Of a stretch of DNA of 34,926 nucleotides, positions 12,151 through 33,268 are shown in pieces. The notes beneath the pieces were generated by a model. It did no database searches. It saw only the letters and a list, made by a program, of their open reading frames with translations, and was not told where the DNA came from. The stretch comes from a virus. The stretch covers positions 1 through 34,926 of IMG/VR virus record IMGVR_UViG_3300030109_002021. The stretch is one strand, 5' to 3'. The translations under genes were made by a program, and so were the position numbers. The stretch's first letter is position 1. Each line of letters opens with the position of its first letter.

Positions 12151-13940
12151 TTTTCATATCTGTCTTGTATTGATCCTTCTGCGTCTACGGGTATATCGCC
12201 AATCCATTTAGGGGGTTCCGACATAATTTTGATGACTTCTTCTAAAGTCTCTTGTGCTTTGTCGGCATCCGATTCCACAACTAGTTCATCATGAACGTGC
12301 ATAATTATTTTATGCCCTGCTGCATCAACTCTTAGGAGCATATCAGAAAAGATATCTCTCGCTAATGCTTGAGAGGCATTCTCTGCTACTAGTCCTCCCC
12401 ATAATCTGACGGCTGCATACTTGCCATGACGAGGGACTTTAGCAGTGTATTGTGTGTTCGTTGGGTCTCCCCCTTTGTGTAGAGTTCCGTAATCTAAAAC
12501 TCTTTCGCTAGGAAGCTCTACAGTAAATGTAGATTTTAACTCATTCCCATCTTTATCATATCCTTTTGTAACACGAGTAGATCCTGCAATATCTTCGCTA
12601 TAGGAAAACCAAAGATCTTTAATCTTCTTCATCTTGTTCCTGTAAGTATCCACTCTTTTCTGAGCTTCCTTTTCTGTGATGTCAGACATACTCGCAAATC
12701 GTTTTGCTCCTGCCCCATAACCACAACCTAAGACCATCGCTTTTACAGCGTGACGCTTCTCTGGGTTTTCCTTTTTGAGTATGCCGTCCTCTTTATTCCA
12801 CATCCCAAACCTGATGGCGAATGCTTCGTAGATATCATCTGTGTTTTTAATCTCCTCCATCATTTCGCGATCATTAGCTAACCAGCAAAGTGTTCTTACT
12901 TCAATCTGAGAAAGGTCTACCACGATTAATTTTTTGTCAGGTTGAGGGCAAATCAAATGCCTCAAGTTAACCCCAAACATTTCATCTCTGGGGAGGTTCT
13001 GTAAATTTAAGTTTCCACCAGACCCACTAAATCTACCCGTGTGTGCTCCAAAATACATACACCCACCGTAATATCTACCGTCTGGCATGGTGGCGTAATC
13101 AAAGCTTTCTAGCTTCTTTTTGATGGAGTTTATTCTTCTCCAGTTCTTAACAGCTCCTATCCACTTGTGTTCTTCGCTATGCTTCTTGATCCACTCTTGG
13201 GCATCTTCATCCGCTTCCGCGAGACTTACTGGTGGTTCAAGACCAAGCAGTAAACACTGCTGATCAAAAGCTGCCCTACTAAGAAGGGGTTTCTCATCCA
13301 ACCAAGGGATGTTTTCTTCAGCTTCAAATAAAGCTTTGTTGATTGTCTCTAACTGTTTCTTTAGAAGTCCAGTATCAATTGGGATGCCTCTTTGAACTAT
13401 CCTTCGATTTACCCGACTGATGTCCCTTTCAAACTGAGGCCATTTATCTTTAAGTGTCTCCCATAGCTTGAGACATAGTTCACTATCCTTGAGGGCATAT
13501 TCACTTACCTCTTCTTTAAACTCTGGGGACATATCCTCCCATCGTTTGCCAGACATATTGTCTCGTGTAGATTTATCTACAGTGAGATTGAAGAGTTGAG
13601 CCGTGGATCCTTTTAGTGATCTAGGTAACTTGCAATACGCTGCTAGGTCTGCAGTGCAGTGCCATTCTGCTGGTTCACAATTAGGCCACCAGTTACGGGA
13701 TACACCATACAGATACAAGGTTTCATCAAAGGAGGCATTGTGTGACAGAACAACATTGCCGTCCAACAGACTCCAATCAAAGTCTCTAGGGTGACCAACA
13801 AAATTTGTCCCCTCCGTTCCAACAACTGATACCATGTAGGCATCGAAGTTGGGGTGACTAAAGTATCCCAAAACTCCTAGAGTTTTTATTGAGCATTCTT
13901 TGTCATAGTATGTTTCGTAATCTAAAGCAAAAGTGTCCAT
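12147..13940 (-). CDS. DNA polymerase A with 3'-5' proofreading domain
   Basis: This 597-residue family A replicative polymerase has a DnaQ-type exonuclease first: DYET (Asp7, Glu9), SHNASFD (Asp72) and YALKDSE (Asp152). The polymerase domain follows: TGRFS (301-305), NLQNLPR (312-318), motif A VDLSQIEVR (Asp342), motif B with Arg396, Lys400 and Tyr408, and motif C HVHDE (Asp551, Glu552). There is no 5'-3' exonuclease, as usual in phage. In motif B the residue aligned to E. coli Phe762 is Leu404, a variant that comparative studies have linked to slower or less lytic replication. The gene starts 10 bases after a perfect GC hairpin (13951-13990) with no Shine-Dalgarno sequence, and is coupled to the primase-helicase downstream. 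Confidence 0.93.
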   Translation of the reverse strand: MDTFALDYETYYDKECSIKTLGVLGYFSHPNFDAYMVSVVGTEGTNFVGHPRDFDWSLLDGNVVLSHNASFDETLYLYGVSRNWWPNCEPAEWHCTADLAAYCKLPRSLKGSTAQLFNLTVDKSTRDNMSGKRWEDMSPEFKEEVSEYALKDSELCLKLWETLKDKWPQFERDISRVNRRIVQRGIPIDTGLLKKQLETINKALFEAEENIPWLDEKPLLSRAAFDQQCLLLGLEPPVSLAEADEDAQEWIKKHSEEHKWIGAVKNWRRINSIKKKLESFDYATMPDGRYYGGCMYFGAHTGRFSGSGGNLNLQNLPRDEMFGVNLRHLICPQPDKKLIVVDLSQIEVRTLCWLANDREMMEEIKNTDDIYEAFAIRFGMWNKEDGILKKENPEKRHAVKAMVLGCGYGAGAKRFASMSDITEKEAQKRVDTYRNKMKKIKDLWFSYSEDIAGSTRVTKGYDKDGNELKSTFTVELPSERVLDYGTLHKGGDPTNTQYTAKVPRHGKYAAVRLWGGLVAENASQALARDIFSDMLLRVDAAGHKIIMHVHDELVVESDADKAQETLEEVIKIMSEPPKWIGDIPVDAEGSIQDRYEK

Positions 13941-13950
13941 AATTTAAATT

Positions 13951-13990
13951 TACCCCGCCCCCCACAATGATGCTAATAGGGGGCGGGGTA
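13951..13990 (-). promoter_or_regulatory. Perfect 12-bp GC hairpin before DNA polymerase start
   Basis: TACCCCGCCCCC (13951-13962) is the exact reverse complement of GGGGGCGGGGTA (13979-13990), with a 16-base AT-rich loop. On the minus strand the stem ends 10 bases before the polymerase ATG. The spacer is itself a perfect palindrome (AATTTAAATT, 13941-13950). The site lies in the 125-base gap between the coiled-coil gene and polA, the longest non-coding stretch in the window. No T-run follows on either strand, so a translational operator or attenuator is more likely than a simple terminator. Confidence 0.8.
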
Positions 13991-14065
13991 TATTGTTATT
14001 GGGCTTTTATGCGCTTACCCAAGGGCGGATGACTAACCAGTGTGATATAAACACCGACGCATTAC

Positions 14066-14257
14066 CTAATCTGTTACGAGTTCCAATTCAGTTTCCTTAT
14101 GGACATCCTGAAGATTCTTCTCCAGTCCTTCCAAAAGAATTCTATTAGCAATCAAAGCAGTCTGCGAATTTTCCAGAACTGACTCTAACTCCTGAATAGT
14201 TTTCTTCATGGCTTGAATTTCAGTCTCGTATACTTCTTGTGGTGTAAGAGTAGCCAT
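14066..14257 (-). CDS. Small coiled-coil protein, unknown function
   Basis: This 63-residue protein is almost entirely a predicted charged helix with heptad-like leucines (IQELESVLENS, LLEGLEKNLQDV). Its ATG lies one base after the stop of the upstream gene in the minus-strand replication run, so it is probably translated with it. There is no catalytic or membrane motif. Possible roles are oligomerisation partner or accessory factor for the neighbouring replication proteins. Confidence 0.66.
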   Translation of the reverse strand: MATLTPQEVYETEIQAMKKTIQELESVLENSQTALIANRILLEGLEKNLQDVHKETELELVTD

Positions 14258-21532: not shown

Positions 21533-24500
21533 ATGTCAGACCCAAGCAAACCAAAACTAGTCAACGAAACACCTTATTCTCAATGGTCAGCCGATAACAT
21601 CTATGAAGATGAAGTAGAAAGTTATGGCAGATATGCGAATCATTTGAGGGGAGAATACCTTTCTGCAGGAGCATACACCCCAGAAGTAGAACAAGATTTA
21701 AGGGGCGGGTTACAAAATATTTTAGAAACCGAAGGACTACTGGGGGTAGATACAGCAGACCAAGTTCAAGATACTCTTGAGAGTATTAATAAGCCTTCGC
21801 TTTTTGAGGAGGCAAGTCTTCTTGCGGACAACATTAATACAGTAAAAGCCGCACCTGAAGATAAAGAAAAGATCCTTTCGTATGTAGCGAGTCAGCAAGC
21901 TGGCGGAGAACCCGACGATGATTTAGATCCTGATGAGATTTCTCGCCTTGTTAAAGAGAACAGAAGAGATGTCATTACTGATTTGTATAACAGAGGTGAA
22001 ATACTTGCGGGTGTATATGAAGATGAAGATGGAAATGAAACTTTCTTAGGTGGTAAGTTACCCGACAACCTTACCGAATCAGAGGTAATTAAGAACTCCT
22101 CTGCCTATGGAGTTCAGCCAAGGCATTTGTTTAATCTTCAAGCTAACAGGCAAAGGATCCCACAAAGAGGAAACCTTAGATTTTATGAGCTTAAAGAAAG
22201 ACAAAAAGTTGAAGTAGAGGTTGATGAATTCTTTGTTAAGACTGACGAGAAAACAAAAGCACAACTGCAAGGTCTAGCTACTGCGTTAGGAAAACAAAAG
22301 TCTTGGGACTTCGGAGATAAAGCTTGGGAAAATACAGGAGATTTTACTGGTGATATTTGGAGATCCATTCGTATTGGATGGAATGATTTAACTGGTGATG
22401 ACGAAGAAGCATTAGAGCTTAGGCAGAAAGAACGCTTTGAAAATAATGCGGAAGCTGCCGAAGATAATGCACAAGCAGTTAAAGCTACCCTTGTGCAGAA
22501 GTTAATAAATCAAACAGGGTATGACGCAGAGGTTCTGGAAGATGTAGTCGATGACTACGTTACTAAGTTAGCCTTTTATGGAGACGGTGGAGAATTCCAA
22601 CCGACTTTAAAATACACAGATGACGAAGATGATCTCGCGCAGAATGTAATAAAAACAAAATACAATGGCGTTTTAATTCAAAGAGACCTGCAATTAAAAC
22701 CAGAAATGTATGCGAAAGCTCTCGCTGGAGCTGGTTTATCCGAAGAAGAAATTGCAGAGCAGGAAACATTCAGACAAGCAGCAAACGAAGGACAGTTTGA
22801 TTCGTATAATAAAGTTTTATCTGCTGATGAAGATCACGGGGACGAATGGCAAGCAGCTTTAGTAAGGGGCAGACTGAGTGGCCTTAGTAATTCAGCTATC
22901 TTAGAAAAGTTTGTTAGAGACACAGATGTAAGCTTTAGAAGCAGGGGAGTTTGGACAAGTGTTAAGCAGTCTTTCTCTACCTTGGGGTATGGAGTAGCGG
23001 CAATGTTTGGTTCTGAGTGGGGGCAAGATGGGCTGGTAGAAAATGAAAGGATAAAAAACCACAACAGAGAAATAGCTGGCATCTTTGGTATAGAGATGGG
23101 GACGTTCCAAGAGATGGCCGAACAGGTTGCTCCAATGTTAACAGATGCCGTTATTGGTGGCGTAGCTGCACTTGCAGCAGCCCCTACTTTTGGTGCGTCT
23201 GCTGCTGGAGGAGCTGCCTACTTTAGTGCAAAGACTTCAGCTACTACTGTCGCAAGAGGTATCATAAAAGAATCCTTCAAAGGAACTCTTAAACGTGGTG
23301 TTAAACGAGACGGTTTGTTGCCAGCGGGTAAAATGGTAAGAGAATCCCTAGAAGATGTAAGGGATAGGATTATAAAGAACTCAACTCTTGGGCCAGATGT
23401 AACGGGCGATACTATAATGGCTGCTCTAAAAGGTTACAACGGAGTGTTGGGTAGTAAGATGGGGGTCACAGCAGCCACCTTTGTCCCCGCTGCTACTAGG
23501 TCTGGATCGATGACTTATGGTTCCGTGTTTAGTACCATGACTGACAGTCTAACGGCAGAACATAAAGATGCTGGAGGAGAATGGCACGAAGGTTGGAGTG
23601 AACAAAGAGTTAGAGAAGAAGCACATAAGGTTGCCTTTGGTGCTGGACTTCAAGCGGGTACAACAACAGGTCTTTTGACTGCTGGAATGGGGAGAATGTT
23701 TGGGGGTAAACTAGGTGGTCTAGAAAACACTTTCTTAAAAGGTTTGAGTTATAGGCAAACAAGGATTGTTGCTTCGCGATTGCTAGGCAAAGAAGTTAAT
23801 GATGCTGTTTTCCAAAAAGCTTTAAAGAAAAGTGTCAGTGAAGTGATGCGGAAGAATGGAATGGGTGTGCTGAAAGAGGTAGGTTTGGCAGCAGCAGGTG
23901 AGGGTTTTGAAGAAGGTGTGGATGAATTAGTTAATAGCTTAATTCAGGATGCCTACACAGGACAAGATACTTCACTACAAGAAAGGATGTCATCAGCTTG
24001 GCAAGGCTTTCTATTGGGAGGACTCATGGGAGCGGGGTCTCCTGCACTAGGTAGGACATCTCGTAATGTTGCCGTCAAGTTTAGGTTCAACAAAGATGAA
24101 GCCCGTCTACTTCAAGATGAAGTCTTACAAAACTACAGACAGAGGATAGCTGCTGATGAACAGCTCAATGAGAAATACAGCAAGCTATATGATAGTGGAG
24201 CACCTCAAACAGCAGAAGCTGCTAAAGATGCAGATAAAAGGCAGCAGATAAACGAGAAGTATAATCAACCAGATAGTCCCGAAGCAGATCAAGATGCACC
24301 ACAAGATCAACAAGATGCTCAAGCTGATGCGGGTGCTGCTGAACAGCAACAAGAAGATGATCAAGAGGCACAAGAGGCACAAGACGAAGAGACACTAGAA
24401 CAACTAGAGCTTATCTTTGCCAATACTCCGCAGGAACAAATTGAAAAAACAATTGATGATGTAGCTTCAGAGGCGGATCAAGATACAGACATTCCCGTAG

Positions 24501-27500
24501 ATCCTGAAGTAGGGGGAGACCCCACCATTTCTAAGGTTCTTGATTCAGACGAAAACGTATCATCTAGATCAGACCAAGCTTCTGTTACTTCTCCCCATCC
24601 AGCAAATGTTGATCAACTTACAGCGCGTCAAAAGCACTCAGCTTCGCTCGCTGATATTGAAAGGAAAACTCGTCGATACCAAGAAGAGCAAGAGAAGCTT
24701 TCAGTATTAGAGGGAGAAGATCTTGAAAAGGCAGAGCGTATAATCGACCAAGGTGTAGCGGAGGGTAGACTACACACTCCAGAGACTGCGTCCTTTAGTA
24801 GGAAAGAAGCAGATAAAGTTTTAGAACAGGATCTAGCGGATGAACGTAAACCTAAAGTCGTGTCTGAAAAAGACATCTCTTCATTGGGGGAACTAGAAGA
24901 AGCAGGGTTCCCTGTTACTTTGATTAAAGAACATCTTAATCAATTTGATCTAAACCTAGATAGTTCTGATCCAAAGTATCTAAAGGCCGTAACAAATAAA
25001 CTAGCCACTGCTATTAGGAAAAGATTTCCTCTCCTTAAAAAGAGGATGCCTACAGGAGGAGCTAGAATACCTAGCTCTTTTGGATCTGCGAGAAGTGTAT
25101 TTGTAGACGCAGATGGTAATGGGGTATTTAACAATGACCCACAATCAATGCTCACTCTGCTGCAGAATGGGATCCCCATTCCGCTAACAGAACAAGATGC
25201 GGGGAGCACAACTTTAAACCCGTCCTTTAAGATAAAAACTATTGCGGGGCAGAAATTTGTAACAGACGTTTTTGTTCCTGTCTCAGGTGGTTTCGTGTCA
25301 GCACGAACTGCCTTTAATAAGGTAGGTGTTCACCAAGCTGATTATAGGAATATCACAAATCTTATTGCACAAAATAAACAGCTAAGAAATAGCGGCATAG
25401 AAAACCGTGAAGGTCTTAAAGATAAAAGATTTACAGATCCTTTAAATCCTAGAAGGAAAGCCACGCTCAAAGAACTCTTAAAGGACGCGAAAGATATTGG
25501 TAAATTAAAAGGCATCATTGCTAATGATGAGACTCTTAATCTTAACAAAGATTATGTGGATGCAATGGCTGTGTCTCTTAGCTTATCTCTACAGAATAGA
25601 CTTTATTCATATGGCGTTACCGTTGTTAGTGGGGATGCCAAATCAGATGTGCCTTACAACATAGCTCAAGTTAGAGATAATCAGGCTAGGTTCTATAGGA
25701 AGCAACAGGCAGAAAGGGCTAATAAAGCTAGGCGTGATTTAGCTAGTATCATTAACCCCAACTCACCTGTACTTGAGAACCCAACTGTTCTAGATGTTGA
25801 TGCTTCTCTTGAAGATGCACAGATCCCACCACGGACAAACCCAATTGCACCAGTACCTCAAGCTAAACTACGACAATACCTTGGTAATTTATTTACAGAA
25901 GGTAGTGAAGCACTGAGGGATAACTCACAGTTACGCGCTGCAGTTAAAGAGCTTCTCGATAATAAATTACACGGTGGTAAGAAAACCACTAGGTCTTACT
26001 CACCAGAAAAAACCTTTGAAGAGCTAGTATTCTTTTTAGCTAGGGGTGGCAACATCACTACTATGGAGGCTGTTCAATTAAATGACACCCTTAAACAAGG
26101 CCAAGTCTTTGGAGAAACAGGGACTAAACTTAGAAGATCGTTAATGCTTCTAGGTATATCAACTCCTACAGTTGAAGGTTCGCCTCAATCAAATCTAGAA
26201 TTTGGAGAGCTAGTTAAAGGAGAATTGCAGAAGCTAGTCGGTAAAGACACCGAGGTTACTATTAATGATGCTAGAGATTTCTACAAACAAGTAAGGAATG
26301 GTGCTGCTGTCTACCGACAGAGAGCCATCATAGATGGTAAATCAAGGAGAGATACTGCTCGCAAAAACTATAGAGAAATAGAAGAGCTAGGTCTTGAAGA
26401 AGGAGACCCAGAGACAGTCATCGCTGCACTGGAGCAGATAGCTAAAGGTAAAGTCAAACAACTTAGGCTTGCTGCTGAAGCGATACTTCAAAATAAAGAT
26501 TTAATACGATCAGTCAGGTTTGAGATAGATGCGTCCGCTGCTAACTACGCAGGTCTGTATTACAGAGATGCTAATGGGCAACCTGTTATTGTAATTAATC
26601 CAAACAGGACTGGTGGTAGAGGGGTAGCTGATACTTTAGTCCACGAATATCTACACGCATTTACCACTGACGTTATCAATGCAGATCCTGCATCAAGAAC
26701 ACCTGCTCAAAACGAAGCAGTAGCTGGACTTAGTCGTTTGCTAGAAGCTATTAAACGAGAAGTCAAAGGGGATGACCCACAGCTATTAAAGTTTGGCACT
26801 GAAAATCTAGATGAGTTCTTAGCTTATTTACTTACAGCTCCTAAGTTCCAGAACTTTGTCAGAGGTATTAGACCGAGAGACGGAGGACGTAACTACTTAC
26901 AGAGACTCTTTGATTTTATAGCTAAGGTATTTCGCGTCCCTAACAAAGCATTTAACCAAGCTATCAGTGATGCCCTTGACCTAACAAAGAGGGCAGGAAT
27001 CCCTGACCCTGAATCCCAAGCAGGGTTCGTGGATCAGGTTGCAGGAAGCATATCAGAAGAGCAAACAGCTCTCGCTTCAATGGCTGAAGATATGGGCATG
27101 GCTGAGACAACTCAGAGTAGTGCTGCACTTGAAAGAGCAATTGATACTTATAAGGCGTGGGCTAGGAATTATCTTCCTGATGAAATCGGTCTAGTCTTTG
27201 ATGAGACTTCCGATGTCATAGTCAAGACAGACCCAGCAACAGGGGCTATCATCATGAACCCAAGAAGAGCTGCTATTAAGTTAGCTCAAGTGGTTTCAGA
27301 AAATGAATTAGATCCAATGAGGCGGGAGCACATACTCGCTTCGTTGCTTAATGAAGAGATGGCACACACCGCATCCTTCGCTACTCTGACTGATACACAG
27401 ATTGCAGAGATTGCGAATGCGATGACAGAGGAGGACTACAATAGAATCCTCGACGAATACTACCCCATTGATGAACGCGCTGAAGCCAGAGAAAGGTTGT

Positions 27501-30500
27501 TCAGTGAAGACCCTGTAGAGTCCAGTAAAGAGAGATACATTCTCGTTGAGGAATCTCTCCGAAGCCACGCACAGAAAGTGATGCGGGGAACTGAGACCAA
27601 CGCAGAGATAGATTTCTTGCTTACGAATCCATCATTGATGGCATCGATTAAGCAATACTTTAAGAACCTCATAGCAAAACTTACTTATCACAGAACTCTA
27701 AATCAGGTTTCACCTGAGATGAAAGTTGCTGTGATGAATGTAGTTAGGGAGATAAGAGCTATTGAAATGGGGTATGCTACAGCAGATTCCAATATGGATT
27801 TCAATCCGAGAAATCCTAAAGCTGTTATTGATCAACTTATCAAGCAAGCTATGGGAACTAACTCTCTTGTTAAAGATACATCGGGAGAGCGTGGTGAACC
27901 TATATACACAGCGGCAATTTTGAATAACCCAACAGATGCATTGCGTGTCTGGGAGGATACGACTGGGGAACCATTGCTGCAGAAGAAGTATGGGCATCAT
28001 ATGACCATTACTTTTAAGCCCACAACTGATCAGTTCAATGACACCCCAATAGGTGCGGAAGCGAAACTCAAAGTTATTGGATATGCCTCAGATGACAATG
28101 TACAAACCTTAGTTGTTAAGGCCGAAAGAGATGACTTTGTTTACGGAGGAGGGGGAATACCCTTTGATAGTAGCAACGCTGTCGCACACATTACAATTGC
28201 TACTGATGGTATAACCAGCCCCGCTTATTCTAATACTCTACTAGAGCAGGGATACACTGAAGTGGACGGGCCTGTGTTATCCGCCAGAGTTGGTTACGTT
28301 GACTCTAACGGAGCAGACATCTTTTCAACAGAGGATGTAACTCTGGAGTCCCGCTTTGGTGCGGGTGAATTGTTACCTGTTAACACCGCTCAGACTGAGG
28401 TTGATGACGCGCTGCTCAATGGTCGTGAGGATATTGATACAGGTATAAAAGGTTCTGCTGTCCACGAGCTTGCGAAGTTCATGGATAGTTTGATGCCGAC
28501 CAAAGAAAAGATTGATTGGCAAAAGAACTGGAGAGGGAAGAAGAAGAGTTTCAAAGATATCCCTCAGAAAGAGAAAGCCTTTAACAGGGACATCGAAAGG
28601 TCAGGAACAAGACTAGTCGGAGTCCTCCAACGAGCACTTAATGAATACCCAGACTTTGTTTCTTGGTATGAAGAACGTGTGAGTATGGCGATGAATATCT
28701 TTGCCGAGTTAGATTCAGACGCAGCCAAACCACAAGACGATTTCATCTTGAAAGTTCTTATGACTGTTACCTCGAATGGTAACAAAGTTAAAGAACAGAC
28801 AGAAGATTCATGGGCGTTGTATCAGAATTGGAAGAAGACTGGTGCGTTAGTTCCTGCTACAAAGAACAATCCTGATAGAACTCAACTAGATAAAGATGGC
28901 AAAGAAGTTCCAATCTCTTGGATAAGGGGAGACAGACAAGACCAGATTAAAAAGCACCTAGCTTTAGTTGACAAACTTATTGCAGAGCACTCATGGGAAA
29001 CTGTTAGTGAATTCTTTTCTAGGTCAGGAACAAGAGCAGAACTTATATCTGATCTACAAGAGTCGTTTGGCTTCACCAAAACCAGAGCAGAGAAATTAAC
29101 AGGGGGTGAGCTAATGGATGAGCAGGTTCCTTACTCTCTTGTTTTCGGAGCCAAGCTGGGGTCGTTTTATAATAACCTCAATGGAGATTTCGAGACGATC
29201 ACAATGGATCGCTGGTTCATGAGAACTTTCGGTAGAACTTTAGGGACGCAACTCCGCAAGTATAACCGAGCAGAAATGAAGGAGAAGCACGACCGCTTTG
29301 ATAAAGCTCTCGCTGCATACCTGAAGCTAGATCCCAAAGCTACACTATTTAAGTTTGCTGATTCACAAAGAACAGACAAGACAAAGCTAGATCCAATAGG
29401 TCGGAAGAGGAAAAGGAATGCCAATATGGTTTTAGCTTTGGCGAAGCATTTTACTAAGTCTTCTAATAGGAAGTTAGCCTTCGATCCTGAGACAGGAACT
29501 ATGGAACAGTTCGCAGGTGAGATGGAAAAAGCAGCCCCGATCACTAACGAACTAAGGCTCGCAACAAATGGTTTATCTAAAGCAATCGATTCATTTGAAT
29601 TAATAGAAGCCCCTGCTAGTGGGGGACATCGTAGGTTTATAAGACTTGCGATGAGGAATGCTCTGGGTAAATTAGAAAAGGAACAAGGAATCAAGATGGT
29701 TCCTGCCGAAGCACAAGCAATATTATGGTATTATGAAAAAGCCCTCCACGCAGAATATGGATCAGGACAAGATGGTGAAGCCCCAGACTACGCGACAGCA
29801 GCGAACGAAGTCTTCAAGGAGTCCAGAGGAACGAGCGCAGGATCCTTTAGAGAATCCACCGCCAACATTAGAGGAAGAGGAGTACGACAAGAATCTGTCG
29901 CTACTGCTGGAGGAACTGGGTTAGCATCTCAAGGAGATATAGCACTTGAATCTAGATTCGGTGCGGACTCTTACATCCCTGCAGAGATAGATGTAGAGGG
30001 TGCAGACTTCTCTAACTGGTTAGAGATACTAGAAGTTCCTTTGATGGACTTCGCTAAGTATGACGCACCCAATACTCTTAAACAAATCTTCGCAAGGAAA
30101 GCAGACAAGAGAGTCATAATGTTCCTTGATCAGACCCAAGCGTTTATCAGGGAGACAAAGAAGATTGTTAAAGTATATCAGGACAGAGCTAATAAAGTCC
30201 TAGATGAGGAGGAAAAGAGAGGAGTAAAAATATCTCCGAGACTTATATCCATTGCTTCTGGTTCCAACATGGGAACTCAGTTAAGCGACGAACAGAAAGC
30301 TCTAGTAGACAATCAATTCAAGGCAGACCTAGCTAAGGCTAGAGGGATACCTGAAAAGGAGAAAGCAAAAGTTCGTCAGCAAGCTGAAGATAATAAGAAG
30401 GCAAACATTACGAGGTTCAGAGAGCAGAACCATGACAGGCTCATAGCCGAAAGGAATGCTGCTCTTGAAGATCTTCTAGTCGTATCTCCTGCAATGTATG

Positions 30501-33268
30501 AAATTGTGGTGGAGATGAGGAAGCTAGTAGATCAACTCTCCATGAAAGGAGAAACGATCTTCGATGGTGCAATGGATCGTGATGATTTCAAAGCAGCCTT
30601 TGATTTCAACAGGGGTATCTACATCACCAGAAGGTATCGTATGTTTGAAGAGCCAAACTTTATTAATCAGGTTCTTAACGAAGACGATGATACCTACGTC
30701 AAAGAAAGAGAAGCTGCCATCCAATACTTTGCTCGTCGATACAAGGCACAAAGAATCGAGGAGCTGATGGAGAAAGAAGGACTCACGAAACAGGATGCAA
30801 GAAAAAGGGCGGACGATGAAATGAATCAGAAAGATTCTGTTCATCTCTCCGAAGGTAAGCAGATGATGGAGAACTTCGTCAGAGCATACGCTGCAGGAAA
30901 GGTTCGTCGTGAGATAGGAACTGCTCAATCTGTTGACGGGGCTTCAGCACTTATTATAGATGAGGACAAGTTCCCGAAAGGCCCGCTTAAATCTTTTGCT
31001 CAAGAACTTAATGAGAAGAAAGATATCCCAGAACCAATTAGAAAATTACTGGGTGAGTATGGTGCTGAGACTGGCTTAGATAACTTGGCCTACACTGTTG
31101 TTCATACAGCTAGTGTTATGGCTAACCAATCTTTCTTCAACAAGATGAAGAAGCTAGGAACAGAATCAAAAGAGCCTTGGCTTTTGACAGCTCAAGAATT
31201 TGAAAAGCTATCTAAAGAAAACCCTAGCAAGTATGCGGAGTGGTCTAGGATTGCTCCCGATAAAGGGCAGCTAGATCTAAATCCTTTGAAGGGTCTCTAC
31301 GCGCCTGACATAGTCATCTCTAACTTGAATGACCTCATCAAGAATGAGAGGGTAGAAACTTCTAGGGCAGCACAGGATGATCTCAACAAGCGTTCAATAA
31401 TCCTCCAAAAGATGGGAGCCTTTATAAGGAAGGCAACTGGATACAGTTTGGCATACAAGACTCTAGGTGGTGTTGGTTTCTATGGCCGTAACTTTATAGG
31501 TAACGCTTTGTTCTTCGGCCCAATGCAGGGATACTACGGTGGTATCGGCAAGGCTATTGAAGAAACTAAAAAAGCAATCGTAGGAGATGATACATCCTTT
31601 ATAAGGAGAGCAGCTCAAGGATCTAAAGCAGACTTAGATTTTGCTATGATCGAACTGGCTACCATGAACGTCTTCGGAGATGAGTTGGAAGTTAACTTGT
31701 TGCAGAGTCTTCTTAAAGATGAGAAGTCTTATAAGAGTCTTGAAGATGACACAGCAAAAGCAGGTGGTCTTGCTGTAGAAGTTTTGAAGTTGATGGATGC
31801 TGGTAAAAAGACAGTGCCAGAATCACTACGCAAAGAATTAGCAGACAAAGGATTTAAAGTAGGAAGGACTCTAAAAGAAACACATGACTTCTTGCTAGAG
31901 TTTGGTTCGCGGATGGCTTCCGCAGCAGACGCTTATTATAAGGTAGGACTTTATGATTACGAATTGAGTGTTCTTAAAGAAGCTGCTCAGTGGGAAATCC
32001 AAAATGGTAAGACCGATGGTAGGTATGCTCGACTCCTTGATAAGGATGGCAAGCCCACTACAGCTATGAAACAAATGGCTGCAGAGATTGTTAAAGATAC
32101 TGCTCAGTCATACAGCAGGGCGATCCCGATTATTAAAGACATAACAAATAGCAACCTGTCTGTTATCATGGCTCCGTTCATTAGGTTTGCAGCCGATGTT
32201 CCAAGAGTAGCTTTCAATGGGTTCCTAAGAATTGGTAAAGAGAAGAACGATTCTAATCCTAAAATCCAAGAGAGGGGCAGGAAAAGAATGCGAGGTTTCA
32301 TTGGGATGAATGCAACCATTACTCTTGTTCCGATAATACTCAGAGCACTTCAAGGAATTGGAGAAGATGAGGACGAAGCACTACGCGCAAGCCTTCCTCC
32401 ATATATGAAGGACAACACTTTCTTCTACACACCAAACCCATTTAAGAAAGATGGAACATGGAGCTGGGATTTCACTTACCTGAACCCATTCGCTATCATT
32501 CAGGATCCTCTATTGAGAATGGGTGACGAACTTTTCAGGGGCAATGTTACAAAAGGAGGATCAAAGTTATTCAATCTCTTGAAGCCATACCTTCAAGAAC
32601 AGATCCTTGCCAAAGCTGTATACCAATCAGTGGTAAACAAATCTGATTATGGTGATAAGATAACTTATGAGGGTGAGCCAAGAGCCTTGCTGAAGAGAGC
32701 AGTATATGCAGCAAACACTGCCTTTGCTCCACGATCTTTGAAAGCACTCAATGATGCACAAGTATCTTTGAGATCTGATGAGACAGAACTAGAACGAAGT
32801 CCCCTTGGCGTGTTCTTTAGAGAAGCTCTTCCTGTTAAGCCATACCCAATGGATCCACTCAGGAGCTATAGGTCTTACCTAAAGAAACACATGGAGGATT
32901 ACCGTGCTTCATCAAAACCTTTAAGTCGTTTGGTTAACACAAAGGGTATGACCAAAGGACAGATAGAGCGACTGTATAATGATTACGCCAAGACAAAGAT
33001 CTATCAGAACAATCAACTGCGAAGAGTTCTTCGGGGCTTCAAGGGTCTTGGTGTTACATCGGATGAGCTGAGAGAGAACGCTTTGTCCAGAGGTATAAGT
33101 AAGAAGAGATACCGTCAGGTCATGACAGGCTTTACCGACAGACCAATTTTAAGTAAGCCACTTGAGAGTGCTTTGAATAGGACATCTCAAGGAAAAGAAA
33201 GACTCAAGGTTTTGAAGAGTTTCTACGAAACTAAATATCCAAAACCAGTAATATCACTAGGAGATTAA
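21533..33268 (+). CDS. Giant polyvalent protein, probable injected internal virion protein
   Basis: This single 3,911-residue frame fills one third of the window. Residues 1-470 are acidic and unassigned. About 470-850 is Gly/Ala-rich with hydrophobic stretches (strongest about 535-567) that could cross a membrane. About 890-965 is a Gln/Asp/Glu linker. An HExxH zincin is centred on His1704, a degenerate zincin-like region on 1940-1945, and a 2H-phosphoesterase-like domain on His2156 and His2219. A region resembling HhH-GPD glycosylases has Lys2541 and Asp2559. LESRFGA occurs at 2271-2277 and 2805-2811. The last 1,100 residues are helical, with membrane-prone segments near 3305-3330 and 3590-3605. 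This matches the large polyvalent proteins that phages package and inject. N4-type RNA polymerase motifs are absent. No Shine-Dalgarno sequence precedes the ATG. Confidence 0.85.
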   Translation: MSDPSKPKLVNETPYSQWSADNIYEDEVESYGRYANHLRGEYLSAGAYTPEVEQDLRGGLQNILETEGLLGVDTADQVQDTLESINKPSLFEEASLLADNINTVKAAPEDKEKILSYVASQQAGGEPDDDLDPDEISRLVKENRRDVITDLYNRGEILAGVYEDEDGNETFLGGKLPDNLTESEVIKNSSAYGVQPRHLFNLQANRQRIPQRGNLRFYELKERQKVEVEVDEFFVKTDEKTKAQLQGLATALGKQKSWDFGDKAWENTGDFTGDIWRSIRIGWNDLTGDDEEALELRQKERFENNAEAAEDNAQAVKATLVQKLINQTGYDAEVLEDVVDDYVTKLAFYGDGGEFQPTLKYTDDEDDLAQNVIKTKYNGVLIQRDLQLKPEMYAKALAGAGLSEEEIAEQETFRQAANEGQFDSYNKVLSADEDHGDEWQAALVRGRLSGLSNSAILEKFVRDTDVSFRSRGVWTSVKQSFSTLGYGVAAMFGSEWGQDGLVENERIKNHNREIAGIFGIEMGTFQEMAEQVAPMLTDAVIGGVAALAAAPTFGASAAGGAAYFSAKTSATTVARGIIKESFKGTLKRGVKRDGLLPAGKMVRESLEDVRDRIIKNSTLGPDVTGDTIMAALKGYNGVLGSKMGVTAATFVPAATRSGSMTYGSVFSTMTDSLTAEHKDAGGEWHEGWSEQRVREEAHKVAFGAGLQAGTTTGLLTAGMGRMFGGKLGGLENTFLKGLSYRQTRIVASRLLGKEVNDAVFQKALKKSVSEVMRKNGMGVLKEVGLAAAGEGFEEGVDELVNSLIQDAYTGQDTSLQERMSSAWQGFLLGGLMGAGSPALGRTSRNVAVKFRFNKDEARLLQDEVLQNYRQRIAADEQLNEKYSKLYDSGAPQTAEAAKDADKRQQINEKYNQPDSPEADQDAPQDQQDAQADAGAAEQQQEDDQEAQEAQDEETLEQLELIFANTPQEQIEKTIDDVASEADQDTDIPVDPEVGGDPTISKVLDSDENVSSRSDQASVTSPHPANVDQLTARQKHSASLADIERKTRRYQEEQEKLSVLEGEDLEKAERIIDQGVAEGRLHTPETASFSRKEADKVLEQDLADERKPKVVSEKDISSLGELEEAGFPVTLIKEHLNQFDLNLDSSDPKYLKAVTNKLATAIRKRFPLLKKRMPTGGARIPSSFGSARSVFVDADGNGVFNNDPQSMLTLLQNGIPIPLTEQDAGSTTLNPSFKIKTIAGQKFVTDVFVPVSGGFVSARTAFNKVGVHQADYRNITNLIAQNKQLRNSGIENREGLKDKRFTDPLNPRRKATLKELLKDAKDIGKLKGIIANDETLNLNKDYVDAMAVSLSLSLQNRLYSYGVTVVSGDAKSDVPYNIAQVRDNQARFYRKQQAERANKARRDLASIINPNSPVLENPTVLDVDASLEDAQIPPRTNPIAPVPQAKLRQYLGNLFTEGSEALRDNSQLRAAVKELLDNKLHGGKKTTRSYSPEKTFEELVFFLARGGNITTMEAVQLNDTLKQGQVFGETGTKLRRSLMLLGISTPTVEGSPQSNLEFGELVKGELQKLVGKDTEVTINDARDFYKQVRNGAAVYRQRAIIDGKSRRDTARKNYREIEELGLEEGDPETVIAALEQIAKGKVKQLRLAAEAILQNKDLIRSVRFEIDASAANYAGLYYRDANGQPVIVINPNRTGGRGVADTLVHEYLHAFTTDVINADPASRTPAQNEAVAGLSRLLEAIKREVKGDDPQLLKFGTENLDEFLAYLLTAPKFQNFVRGIRPRDGGRNYLQRLFDFIAKVFRVPNKAFNQAISDALDLTKRAGIPDPESQAGFVDQVAGSISEEQTALASMAEDMGMAETTQSSAALERAIDTYKAWARNYLPDEIGLVFDETSDVIVKTDPATGAIIMNPRRAAIKLAQVVSENELDPMRREHILASLLNEEMAHTASFATLTDTQIAEIANAMTEEDYNRILDEYYPIDERAEARERLFSEDPVESSKERYILVEESLRSHAQKVMRGTETNAEIDFLLTNPSLMASIKQYFKNLIAKLTYHRTLNQVSPEMKVAVMNVVREIRAIEMGYATADSNMDFNPRNPKAVIDQLIKQAMGTNSLVKDTSGERGEPIYTAAILNNPTDALRVWEDTTGEPLLQKKYGHHMTITFKPTTDQFNDTPIGAEAKLKVIGYASDDNVQTLVVKAERDDFVYGGGGIPFDSSNAVAHITIATDGITSPAYSNTLLEQGYTEVDGPVLSARVGYVDSNGADIFSTEDVTLESRFGAGELLPVNTAQTEVDDALLNGREDIDTGIKGSAVHELAKFMDSLMPTKEKIDWQKNWRGKKKSFKDIPQKEKAFNRDIERSGTRLVGVLQRALNEYPDFVSWYEERVSMAMNIFAELDSDAAKPQDDFILKVLMTVTSNGNKVKEQTEDSWALYQNWKKTGALVPATKNNPDRTQLDKDGKEVPISWIRGDRQDQIKKHLALVDKLIAEHSWETVSEFFSRSGTRAELISDLQESFGFTKTRAEKLTGGELMDEQVPYSLVFGAKLGSFYNNLNGDFETITMDRWFMRTFGRTLGTQLRKYNRAEMKEKHDRFDKALAAYLKLDPKATLFKFADSQRTDKTKLDPIGRKRKRNANMVLALAKHFTKSSNRKLAFDPETGTMEQFAGEMEKAAPITNELRLATNGLSKAIDSFELIEAPASGGHRRFIRLAMRNALGKLEKEQGIKMVPAEAQAILWYYEKALHAEYGSGQDGEAPDYATAANEVFKESRGTSAGSFRESTANIRGRGVRQESVATAGGTGLASQGDIALESRFGADSYIPAEIDVEGADFSNWLEILEVPLMDFAKYDAPNTLKQIFARKADKRVIMFLDQTQAFIRETKKIVKVYQDRANKVLDEEEKRGVKISPRLISIASGSNMGTQLSDEQKALVDNQFKADLAKARGIPEKEKAKVRQQAEDNKKANITRFREQNHDRLIAERNAALEDLLVVSPAMYEIVVEMRKLVDQLSMKGETIFDGAMDRDDFKAAFDFNRGIYITRRYRMFEEPNFINQVLNEDDDTYVKEREAAIQYFARRYKAQRIEELMEKEGLTKQDARKRADDEMNQKDSVHLSEGKQMMENFVRAYAAGKVRREIGTAQSVDGASALIIDEDKFPKGPLKSFAQELNEKKDIPEPIRKLLGEYGAETGLDNLAYTVVHTASVMANQSFFNKMKKLGTESKEPWLLTAQEFEKLSKENPSKYAEWSRIAPDKGQLDLNPLKGLYAPDIVISNLNDLIKNERVETSRAAQDDLNKRSIILQKMGAFIRKATGYSLAYKTLGGVGFYGRNFIGNALFFGPMQGYYGGIGKAIEETKKAIVGDDTSFIRRAAQGSKADLDFAMIELATMNVFGDELEVNLLQSLLKDEKSYKSLEDDTAKAGGLAVEVLKLMDAGKKTVPESLRKELADKGFKVGRTLKETHDFLLEFGSRMASAADAYYKVGLYDYELSVLKEAAQWEIQNGKTDGRYARLLDKDGKPTTAMKQMAAEIVKDTAQSYSRAIPIIKDITNSNLSVIMAPFIRFAADVPRVAFNGFLRIGKEKNDSNPKIQERGRKRMRGFIGMNATITLVPIILRALQGIGEDEDEALRASLPPYMKDNTFFYTPNPFKKDGTWSWDFTYLNPFAIIQDPLLRMGDELFRGNVTKGGSKLFNLLKPYLQEQILAKAVYQSVVNKSDYGDKITYEGEPRALLKRAVYAANTAFAPRSLKALNDAQVSLRSDETELERSPLGVFFREALPVKPYPMDPLRSYRSYLKKHMEDYRASSKPLSRLVNTKGMTKGQIERLYNDYAKTKIYQNNQLRRVLRGFKGLGVTSDELRENALSRGISKKRYRQVMTGFTDRPILSKPLESALNRTSQGKERLKVLKSFYETKYPKPVISLGD
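26510..26932 (+). other. Domain: HExxH zinc metallopeptidase in giant protein
   Basis: Residues about 1660-1800. A strand pair ending in PVIVINPNR is followed by TLVHEYLHAFT with His1704, Glu1705 and His1708. A candidate third ligand lies in NLDEFLAYLL (Glu1761), 53 residues on. This is the usual arrangement of the metallopeptidases found in phage polyvalent proteins. It may cut host proteins after entry, or process the giant chain itself. Confidence 0.72.
27160..27700 (+). other. Domain: second zincin-like region with EExxH motif
   Basis: Residues about 1877-2055. GAIIMNPRRA parallels the strand before the first zincin site. The helix LLNEEMAHTAS then has Glu1941, Glu1942 and His1945 where HExxH is expected, so the first metal His is replaced by Glu. 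ILVEESLRSHAQ, about 65 residues later, could supply a ligand. It may be a degenerate duplicate of the upstream protease or a variant zincin. Confidence 0.5.
27884..28320 (+). other. Domain: 2H phosphoesterase-like in giant protein
   Basis: Residues about 2118-2262. Two H-x-T-h motifs, GHHMTITF (His2156, Thr2158) and VAHITIAT (His2219, Thr2221), lie 63 residues apart. Each ends a predicted strand, and KLKVIGYASDDNVQTLVV lies between. SPAYSNTL follows. This matches 2H enzymes, which cut cyclic or 2'-5' phosphodiesters in RNA repair and in phage anti-CBASS proteins. Confidence 0.62.
28400..29760 (+). other. Domain: HhH-GPD DNA glycosylase-like region in giant protein
   Basis: Residues about 2290-2742. 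The core at 2539-2566 (GAKLGSFYNN, then TITMDRWFMR) aligns without gaps to E. coli endonuclease III (GRKTANVVLN, then TIAVDTHIFR). It keeps a Lys and an Asp exactly 18 residues apart (Lys2541, Asp2559), like catalytic Lys120 and Asp138. Mostly helical flanks fit the all-alpha fold. No C-terminal 4Fe-4S cysteine cluster is seen. Confidence 0.5.

Follow-up and report, generated by a model that had tools for sequence, protein, structure and literature searches.

The start codon of a phage family-A DNA polymerase gene was found to be preceded by two conserved RNA elements, a GC-rich, terminator-like hairpin whose stem is maintained by compensatory changes and, directly upstream of it, an apparently undescribed RNA domain predicted to form two interlocked pseudoknots. 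The arrangement is tentatively interpreted, with somewhat less than even confidence, as an attenuating leader, in which the terminator-like stem would limit transcription into the polymerase operon and the folded RNA upstream would modulate passage. The analysis was performed on an IMG/VR virus record of 34,926 bp, taken at its full length and hereafter referred to as the window.

The polymerase and its neighbours are encoded on the minus strand (Table 1), the ATG of the polymerase being located at 13940-13938. A DUF2800/PD-(D/E)XK exonuclease and a Holliday junction resolvase are found farther upstream of the polymerase, and most close relatives carry a small ORF at the position equivalent to that of the 63-aa ORF listed in Table 1. 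On the plus strand, a single ORF of 3911 aa (21533-33268) occupies one third of the window.

Table 1. Features of the polymerase leader and of the adjoining genes in the window
Feature	Position	Strand	Remarks
DUF5906 protein, 725 aa	9973..12150	-	next gene in the operon, 4-nt overlap
Family-A DNA polymerase, 597 aa	12147..13940	-	downstream gene; PF00476, phrog_17
A/T-only palindromic spacer AATTTAAATT	13941..13950	not specified	from hairpin to ATG; U-rich tail here in relatives
GC-rich terminator-like hairpin of the polymerase leader	13951..13990	-	12 perfect bp, 15 bp counting G-U
Double-pseudoknot RNA domain, about 74 nt	13997..14069	-	covariance model 52 bits
Helix P4, 3' strand GCCCAA	13999..14004	-	
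Helix P2, 3' strand GCGCA	14010..14014	-	
Helix P4, 5' strand UUGGGU	14017..14022	-	pairs with GCCCAA at 13999-14004
Helix P3, hairpin GGUGU...ACACU	14039..14055	-	
Helix P2, 5' strand UGCGU	14057..14061	-	pairs with GCGCA at 14010-14014; crosses P1 and P4
Helix P1 remnant GG	14065..14066	-	pairs with CC near 14024-14025
Small ORF, 63 aa	14066..14257	-	stop codon touches the RNA domain

The earlier note on this DNA had described a perfect 12-bp stem with a 16-base loop, standing ten bases before the polymerase start codon and separated from it by a palindromic spacer, and these coordinates and complementarities were reproduced in every particular. The perfectly complementary arms lie at 13951-13962 (TACCCCGCCCCC) and 13979-13990 (GGGGGCGGGGTA) and enclose a loop of 16 nt, and the 10-nt spacer is a perfect palindrome. 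With the polymerase and its neighbours encoded on the minus strand, the hairpin reads 5'-CCCCGCCCCC...GGGGGCGGGG-AUG in the RNA sense. The stem also stands out in the window, as had been claimed; no other perfect stem with arms of 11 bp or more and a 3-20-nt loop occurs in the 34.9-kb sequence, the GC content of which is about 38-45%, and 100 Markov shuffles yielded 0.21 such stems on average and at most 4. The plus-strand RNA fold of the region 13920-14020 has an energy of -38.4 kcal/mol (z = -4.2), and none of the 200 shuffles was as low. A chance origin of the hairpin is rejected on the basis of this z value, the uniqueness of the stem relative to the shuffles and its conservation relative to control gene starts. 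The structured leader as a whole is longer, extending to about position 14069, and the hairpin makes up just its 3' half.

Conservation was examined in the region 5' of the ATG in 42 polymerase relatives (58-96% identity) and in a second, more distant set, the hairpin being scored at non-redundant loci as a GC stem, 9 bp or longer, before the ATG. Such a stem precedes the polymerase in 29 of the 32 loci that carry the RNA domain and in 39 of the 42 that do not; it was recorded in 2 of 13 among polymerases of 36-40% identity and in 3 of 126 control gene starts. Different lineages carry unrelated but fully re-paired stem sequences (such as ACCCCGTCCCC/GGGGGCGGGGT, AGCTCCACCTC/GAGGTGGAGCT and AGCCCACCCCGA/TCGGGGTGGGCT), which argues that the stem is selected and not its sequence. 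The loop ranges from 4 to 37 nt among the relatives and has no motif in common, and the distance from the end of the stem to the ATG varies from a few to about 20 nt. Comparison with relatives was among the checks proposed in the earlier note, where a stem not conserved or not compensated was to count against the proposal; the stem is both conserved and compensated and has stood up to this comparison. Leaders without the double pseudoknot in another polymerase branch (L402, L413, L416, L422 and L424) have hairpins directly before the ATG that carry YGUGGGG in the apical part and are sometimes preceded by a second hairpin, and these may represent another kind of leader RNA in the equivalent position.

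The same comparison bears on the suggestion in the earlier note that the hairpin is a translational operator to which the polymerase binds, repressing its own translation as in T4-type phages. The location just before the polymerase gene and the T4/RB69 precedent (PMC3014915) are in keeping with such an operator, but neither the loop, which differs in length as well as in sequence among the lineages, nor the stem sequence is conserved, the hairpin lies 10 nt and not about 40 nt before the ATG, and the enzyme belongs to family A and is not T4-like. An operator of this type is hence considered highly improbable, and this part of the earlier proposal is not sustained.

From its conservation and position, the hairpin is best read as a leader terminator or attenuator, because a U-rich tail terminates many of its copies; 5 or more T in the 10 nt after the stem were counted in 48 of the 74 leaders (21/32 with and 27/42 without the RNA domain). 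The stable GC-rich hairpin expected of an intrinsic terminator is accompanied by a U-tract in these 48 leaders, and the U-tract is weak in the window, the tail of which (AAUUUAAAUU) is a poor one; its subclade has an A/T tail with short T runs only. A terminator pattern, defined as a stem of at least 7 bp plus a U-tract, is present within 110 nt downstream of 40 of the 223 RNA elements listed, as against 3 of 462 random places, and among the matches listed it follows 33 of the 54 elements of the polymerase group and 7 of the 169 outside it. The attenuator or transcription block envisaged in the earlier note therefore draws support from the compensated stem, the U-rich tail in most relatives and the position before the ATG.

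The listing of the leaders brought out a second and far more conserved block, GGNAWU-GYGN-CGG-[hairpin]-CUGGUYA...CAU-NCC-...G-UAA-NCRC-AUAAAA-..., immediately upstream of the hairpin, which the earlier note had overlooked. This RNA domain is present in all the 38 close polymerase relatives for which upstream sequence exists, a set selected on the protein and not on the RNA, and in the polymerase leaders the hairpin stems mostly start 6-18 nt past its AUAAAA strand. The copy in the window matches the covariance model with an E-value of 2.7e-12 in 1 Mb, or 9.8e-14 in the window record. The structure was deduced from 81 non-redundant copies and consists of helix P1 (NNGGN/NCCNN), helix P2 (UGYGN/NCRCA), a variable hairpin P3 and helix P4, which has 4-8 pairs and ends with a G-U pair beside UAA. 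The strands follow the order P1-P2-P3-P3'-linker-P1'-P4-P2'-P4', and P2 crosses both P1 and P4, so that two interlocked pseudoknots are predicted. P1 has 4-6 bp in most relatives and is weak in the window, with about two G-C pairs. The single-stranded residues CUGGUYA, UAA and AUAAAA are strictly kept, although most copies were gathered by a pattern fixing some residues, the invariance of which is therefore partly due to the way the copies were selected; P1, P3, P4 and the partner combinations of P2 were left free by the search pattern.

Pairing was evaluated on 96 matches, 83 of them distinct, aligned to the covariance model; 95.1% of the paired cells in this alignment are standard pairs. Cells changed on both sides number 352, as compared to 104 +/- 10 in shuffles, and the covariation score of 0.571 falls to 0.158 +/- 0.009 on shuffling and to 0.083 or less when the partners are slid by 1-3 columns. 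One of the two variable P2 pairs alternates between C-G and U-A and the other takes the forms G-C, G-U, U-A, U-G, A-U and C-G, P2 being absent from the structure of the model; archaeal copies contribute the further pairings GAGG/CCUC and GCAG/CUGC. At the level of sequence comparison, this covariation lends decisive support to the predicted double pseudoknot.

No family of Rfam 15 matches the RNA domain at gathering or at permissive thresholds (E up to 1-5), the sub-threshold chance matches falling on the hairpin and not on the domain, and no tRNA or tmRNA was detected by ARAGORN. BLAST, which is weak for so short an element, returned no convincing match in isolate phages and plasmids, and a non-exhaustive search of the open-access literature yielded no description of the domain. 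The RNA family is thus, as far as these tools reach, undescribed and new by sequence and strand topology.

On a polymerase tree of 66 rows, the presence of the RNA domain requires 2 changes as against a mean of 21.7 in shuffles, which argues that the domain has stayed beside the polymerase gene, and the pattern fits a single gain and a single loss, the latter in L387. The hairpin is found in polymerase branches outside the RNA-domain clade as well and is therefore probably the older of the two. L387 has kept the hairpin and lost the domain, L053 (from the same record as L381) has kept the domain and lost the hairpin, and the two modules are thus separable, neither needing the other. Such single losses, together with a hairpin that is as frequent in leaders without the domain, favour the view of the hairpin as an ordinary insulating terminator or mRNA-stabilising stem with the RNA domain as an unrelated neighbour; this is nevertheless judged very unlikely, the tandem having been co-inherited through deep polymerase divergence.

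The attenuating leader would have the following form. A conserved stem resembling an intrinsic terminator in the 5' leader of the polymerase operon would act as an attenuator and, since a promoter could not be accommodated between the stem and the ATG, transcripts from the upstream genes would have to pass it before the polymerase is reached. The RNA domain would have been gained directly upstream of the hairpin in the phage clade of the window, the two together would make up a cis-acting leader, and the folded domain would most likely set the frequency with which RNA polymerase (or a ribosome) passes the hairpin. No conserved alternative pairing between the domain and the hairpin was seen on inspection of the leaders. 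In the window and in several relatives, P4 could pair with the arms of the hairpin (GGGUA/UACCC), but this is impossible in L025, L028 and L033, and the pairing was dismissed as not conserved. The poor U-tract of the window, the separability of the modules, the scarcity of terminator patterns outside the polymerase group, the diversity of downstream gene clusters and the Bathyarchaeia copies that lack a same-strand downstream gene (both described below) speak against the attenuating leader.

The RNA domain extends well beyond polymerase genes. Pattern scans of viral contigs and genomes identified at least 231 distinct elements, flanks counted, with over 200 in uncultured viruses and many unrelated genes downstream. 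Virus records of 16-211 kb carry one copy in 39 of 40 cases; the sole record with two (L202:2215-2290 and L202:6021-6108) has copies of clearly different sub-types. Among the matches listed, the neighbouring proteins form 72 clusters upstream and 82 downstream (56 of the latter singletons), mostly singletons on both sides, these numbers being approximate as a simple ORF caller was used. The neighbours that could be named include the polymerase, gp2.5-like SSB, Sak4, RusA and exonuclease VIII, as well as HNH endonucleases, a DNA methyltransferase and probable structural genes, and about half of the nameable downstream genes function in replication or recombination. Locus pairs sharing the upstream side only (30) are about as numerous among the matches listed as those sharing the downstream side only (36), and a tie of the element to one neighbour is rejected on this ground. 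Closely related phages with the same upstream gene and element and a different gene starting right behind it were noted in groupings such as L154/L155, L064/L142 and L049/L110/L153, the 3' edge of the element being a mosaic boundary in these cases. In L051, L052, L066, L074 and L144 the element follows an HNH/endonuclease VII-like gene and is succeeded by several hundred ORF-poor nucleotides with conserved blocks such as GCAAAAAAAGTTATGCGGGGGGTGATAATAATATAGAAAGAACGCAGGC; this stretch may be either an origin or another large RNA, and a large RNA of the GOLLD/ROOL kind was discarded for it as Rfam gave no match.

Occurrence in cellular genomes is sporadic, with 5 of 256 genomes in the class of a Bathyarchaeota MAG, 6 of 236 in the class of a verrucomicrobial MAG and 1 of 299 in the family of an Altibacter MAG; the surroundings of the verrucomicrobial copies L212 and L213 resemble, by eye, phage recombination and replication genes. 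Eight dispersed copies were found in one Bathyarchaeota MAG (four in L198 and the others in L199, L200 and L201), within a repeat unit, about 140 nt in length, which is bordered by the direct repeats AACCTTTAA-CGGTGATG and contains a closing stem (GUGCGUGAGGG/CCCUCACGC) with the promoter-like CGTAACCTTTAAG about 22 nt upstream of it. Several of these copies have no downstream gene on the same strand, and some are antisense to both neighbours.

Viral elements usually start within 20 nt of the upstream stop codon, the median distance to P1 being 9 nt. A read-through or frameshift pseudoknot was considered because of this proximity and was rejected, as another stop lies within or before the element in 113 of 129 cases and the spacing varies. 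A position close behind a stop codon, along with the usual single copy per virus, the absence of a fixed gene partner and the dispersed archaeal copies, would also suit a new self-cleaving ribozyme by which the polycistronic transcript would be cut from one gene to the next, with the hairpin capping or ending one of the products. Compact pseudoknotted RNAs with strictly kept residues are the profile by which ribozyme candidates have been picked by others (PMC10085705), and an RNA of about 74 nt with two crossing pseudoknots and strict single-stranded residues conforms to it. Riboswitch aptamers, however, look alike in silico, the strict conservation derives in part from the search pattern, no Rfam ribozyme matches and the strand order is unlike that of the HDV-like ribozymes, and a ribozyme is regarded as somewhat unlikely.

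The single copy per virus at varied locations, the promoter-like sequence in the Bathyarchaeota repeat unit and its copies antisense to both neighbours suggest, alternatively, an autonomous small RNA that would act in trans, for instance by binding a host or viral factor; in this clade the hairpin would be its terminator and the polymerase would be expressed through read-through. In 51% of the elements, as against 23% in a re-paired control, an outer closing helix has 6 or more (weighted) pairs, which points in the same direction. The vertical retention of the domain directly before the polymerase throughout one clade and, in most viral contexts, an interval between the upstream stop and the element that is too short for a promoter of its own make such a small RNA unlikely. 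Both the ribozyme and the small RNA account better than a metabolite riboswitch for the gene-independent distribution. In broader terms, it is conceivable, though short of probable, that the RNA domain represents a new catalytic (self-cleaving) or RNA-only regulatory class controlling gene-to-gene passage, common to uncultured tailed phages and archaeal mobile DNA and usually present as a single copy in each viral genome.

The RNA domain is an orphan family with strong covariation and hundreds of viral copies, ranging from marine phages to Bathyarchaeia and having no Rfam entry, and orphan RNAs of similar profile have earlier proved to be riboswitches, ribozymes or protein-binding regulators. 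If regulatory, it would provide a rare RNA control point for replication genes of uncultured phages; if cleaving, it would constitute a new ribozyme class.

Known phage systems resemble the leader in part. The HDV-like (theta) ribozymes of phages are likewise compact double pseudoknots, of the nested type, with the strand order P1-P2-P3-P3'-P1'-(P4 hairpin)-P2' and a catalytic C in J4/2; the present domain differs in a conserved linker of about 12 nt between P3 and the 3' strand of P1 and in a fourth helix that crosses P2, and an HDV-like ribozyme was rejected on the strand order and the lack of an Rfam match. The leader of T4 gene 32 also places a pseudoknot before a phage replication gene, in that case one H-type pseudoknot and one gene, whereas here a double pseudoknot precedes many unrelated genes. 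The T4/RB69 gp43 operator, a hairpin of 16-18 bases, lies about 40 nt upstream and has a conserved loop of the UAAC type (PMC3014915); it shares with the window hairpin the location shortly before a phage DNA polymerase gene, while the latter has no conserved loop, UAAC-type or other, and differs in spacing and in the polymerase family. HK022 put RNA, an antiterminator RNA of two stem-loops downstream of early promoters (PMC9378689), is a phage RNA of about 70 nt, and the present domain could also act on terminator passage, although as a double pseudoknot and not as two stem-loops. The conserved pseudoknotted, multi-helix domain is aptamer-like as in riboswitches, but the consistent class of downstream genes that characterises these is absent. 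Leader intrinsic terminators and attenuators, including riboswitch expression platforms, have in common with the present leader the GC-rich stem, the U-rich tail in most relatives and an untranslated position just before the gene with a structured, pseudoknotted RNA ahead, and differ in that the U-tract is degraded in the clade of the window and no ligand, alternative pairing or fixed pathway was found. Taken alone, the hairpin is of an ordinary kind, a probable leader terminator retained ahead of one phage polymerase clade, and the mechanism of the RNA family may well be of an already known type.
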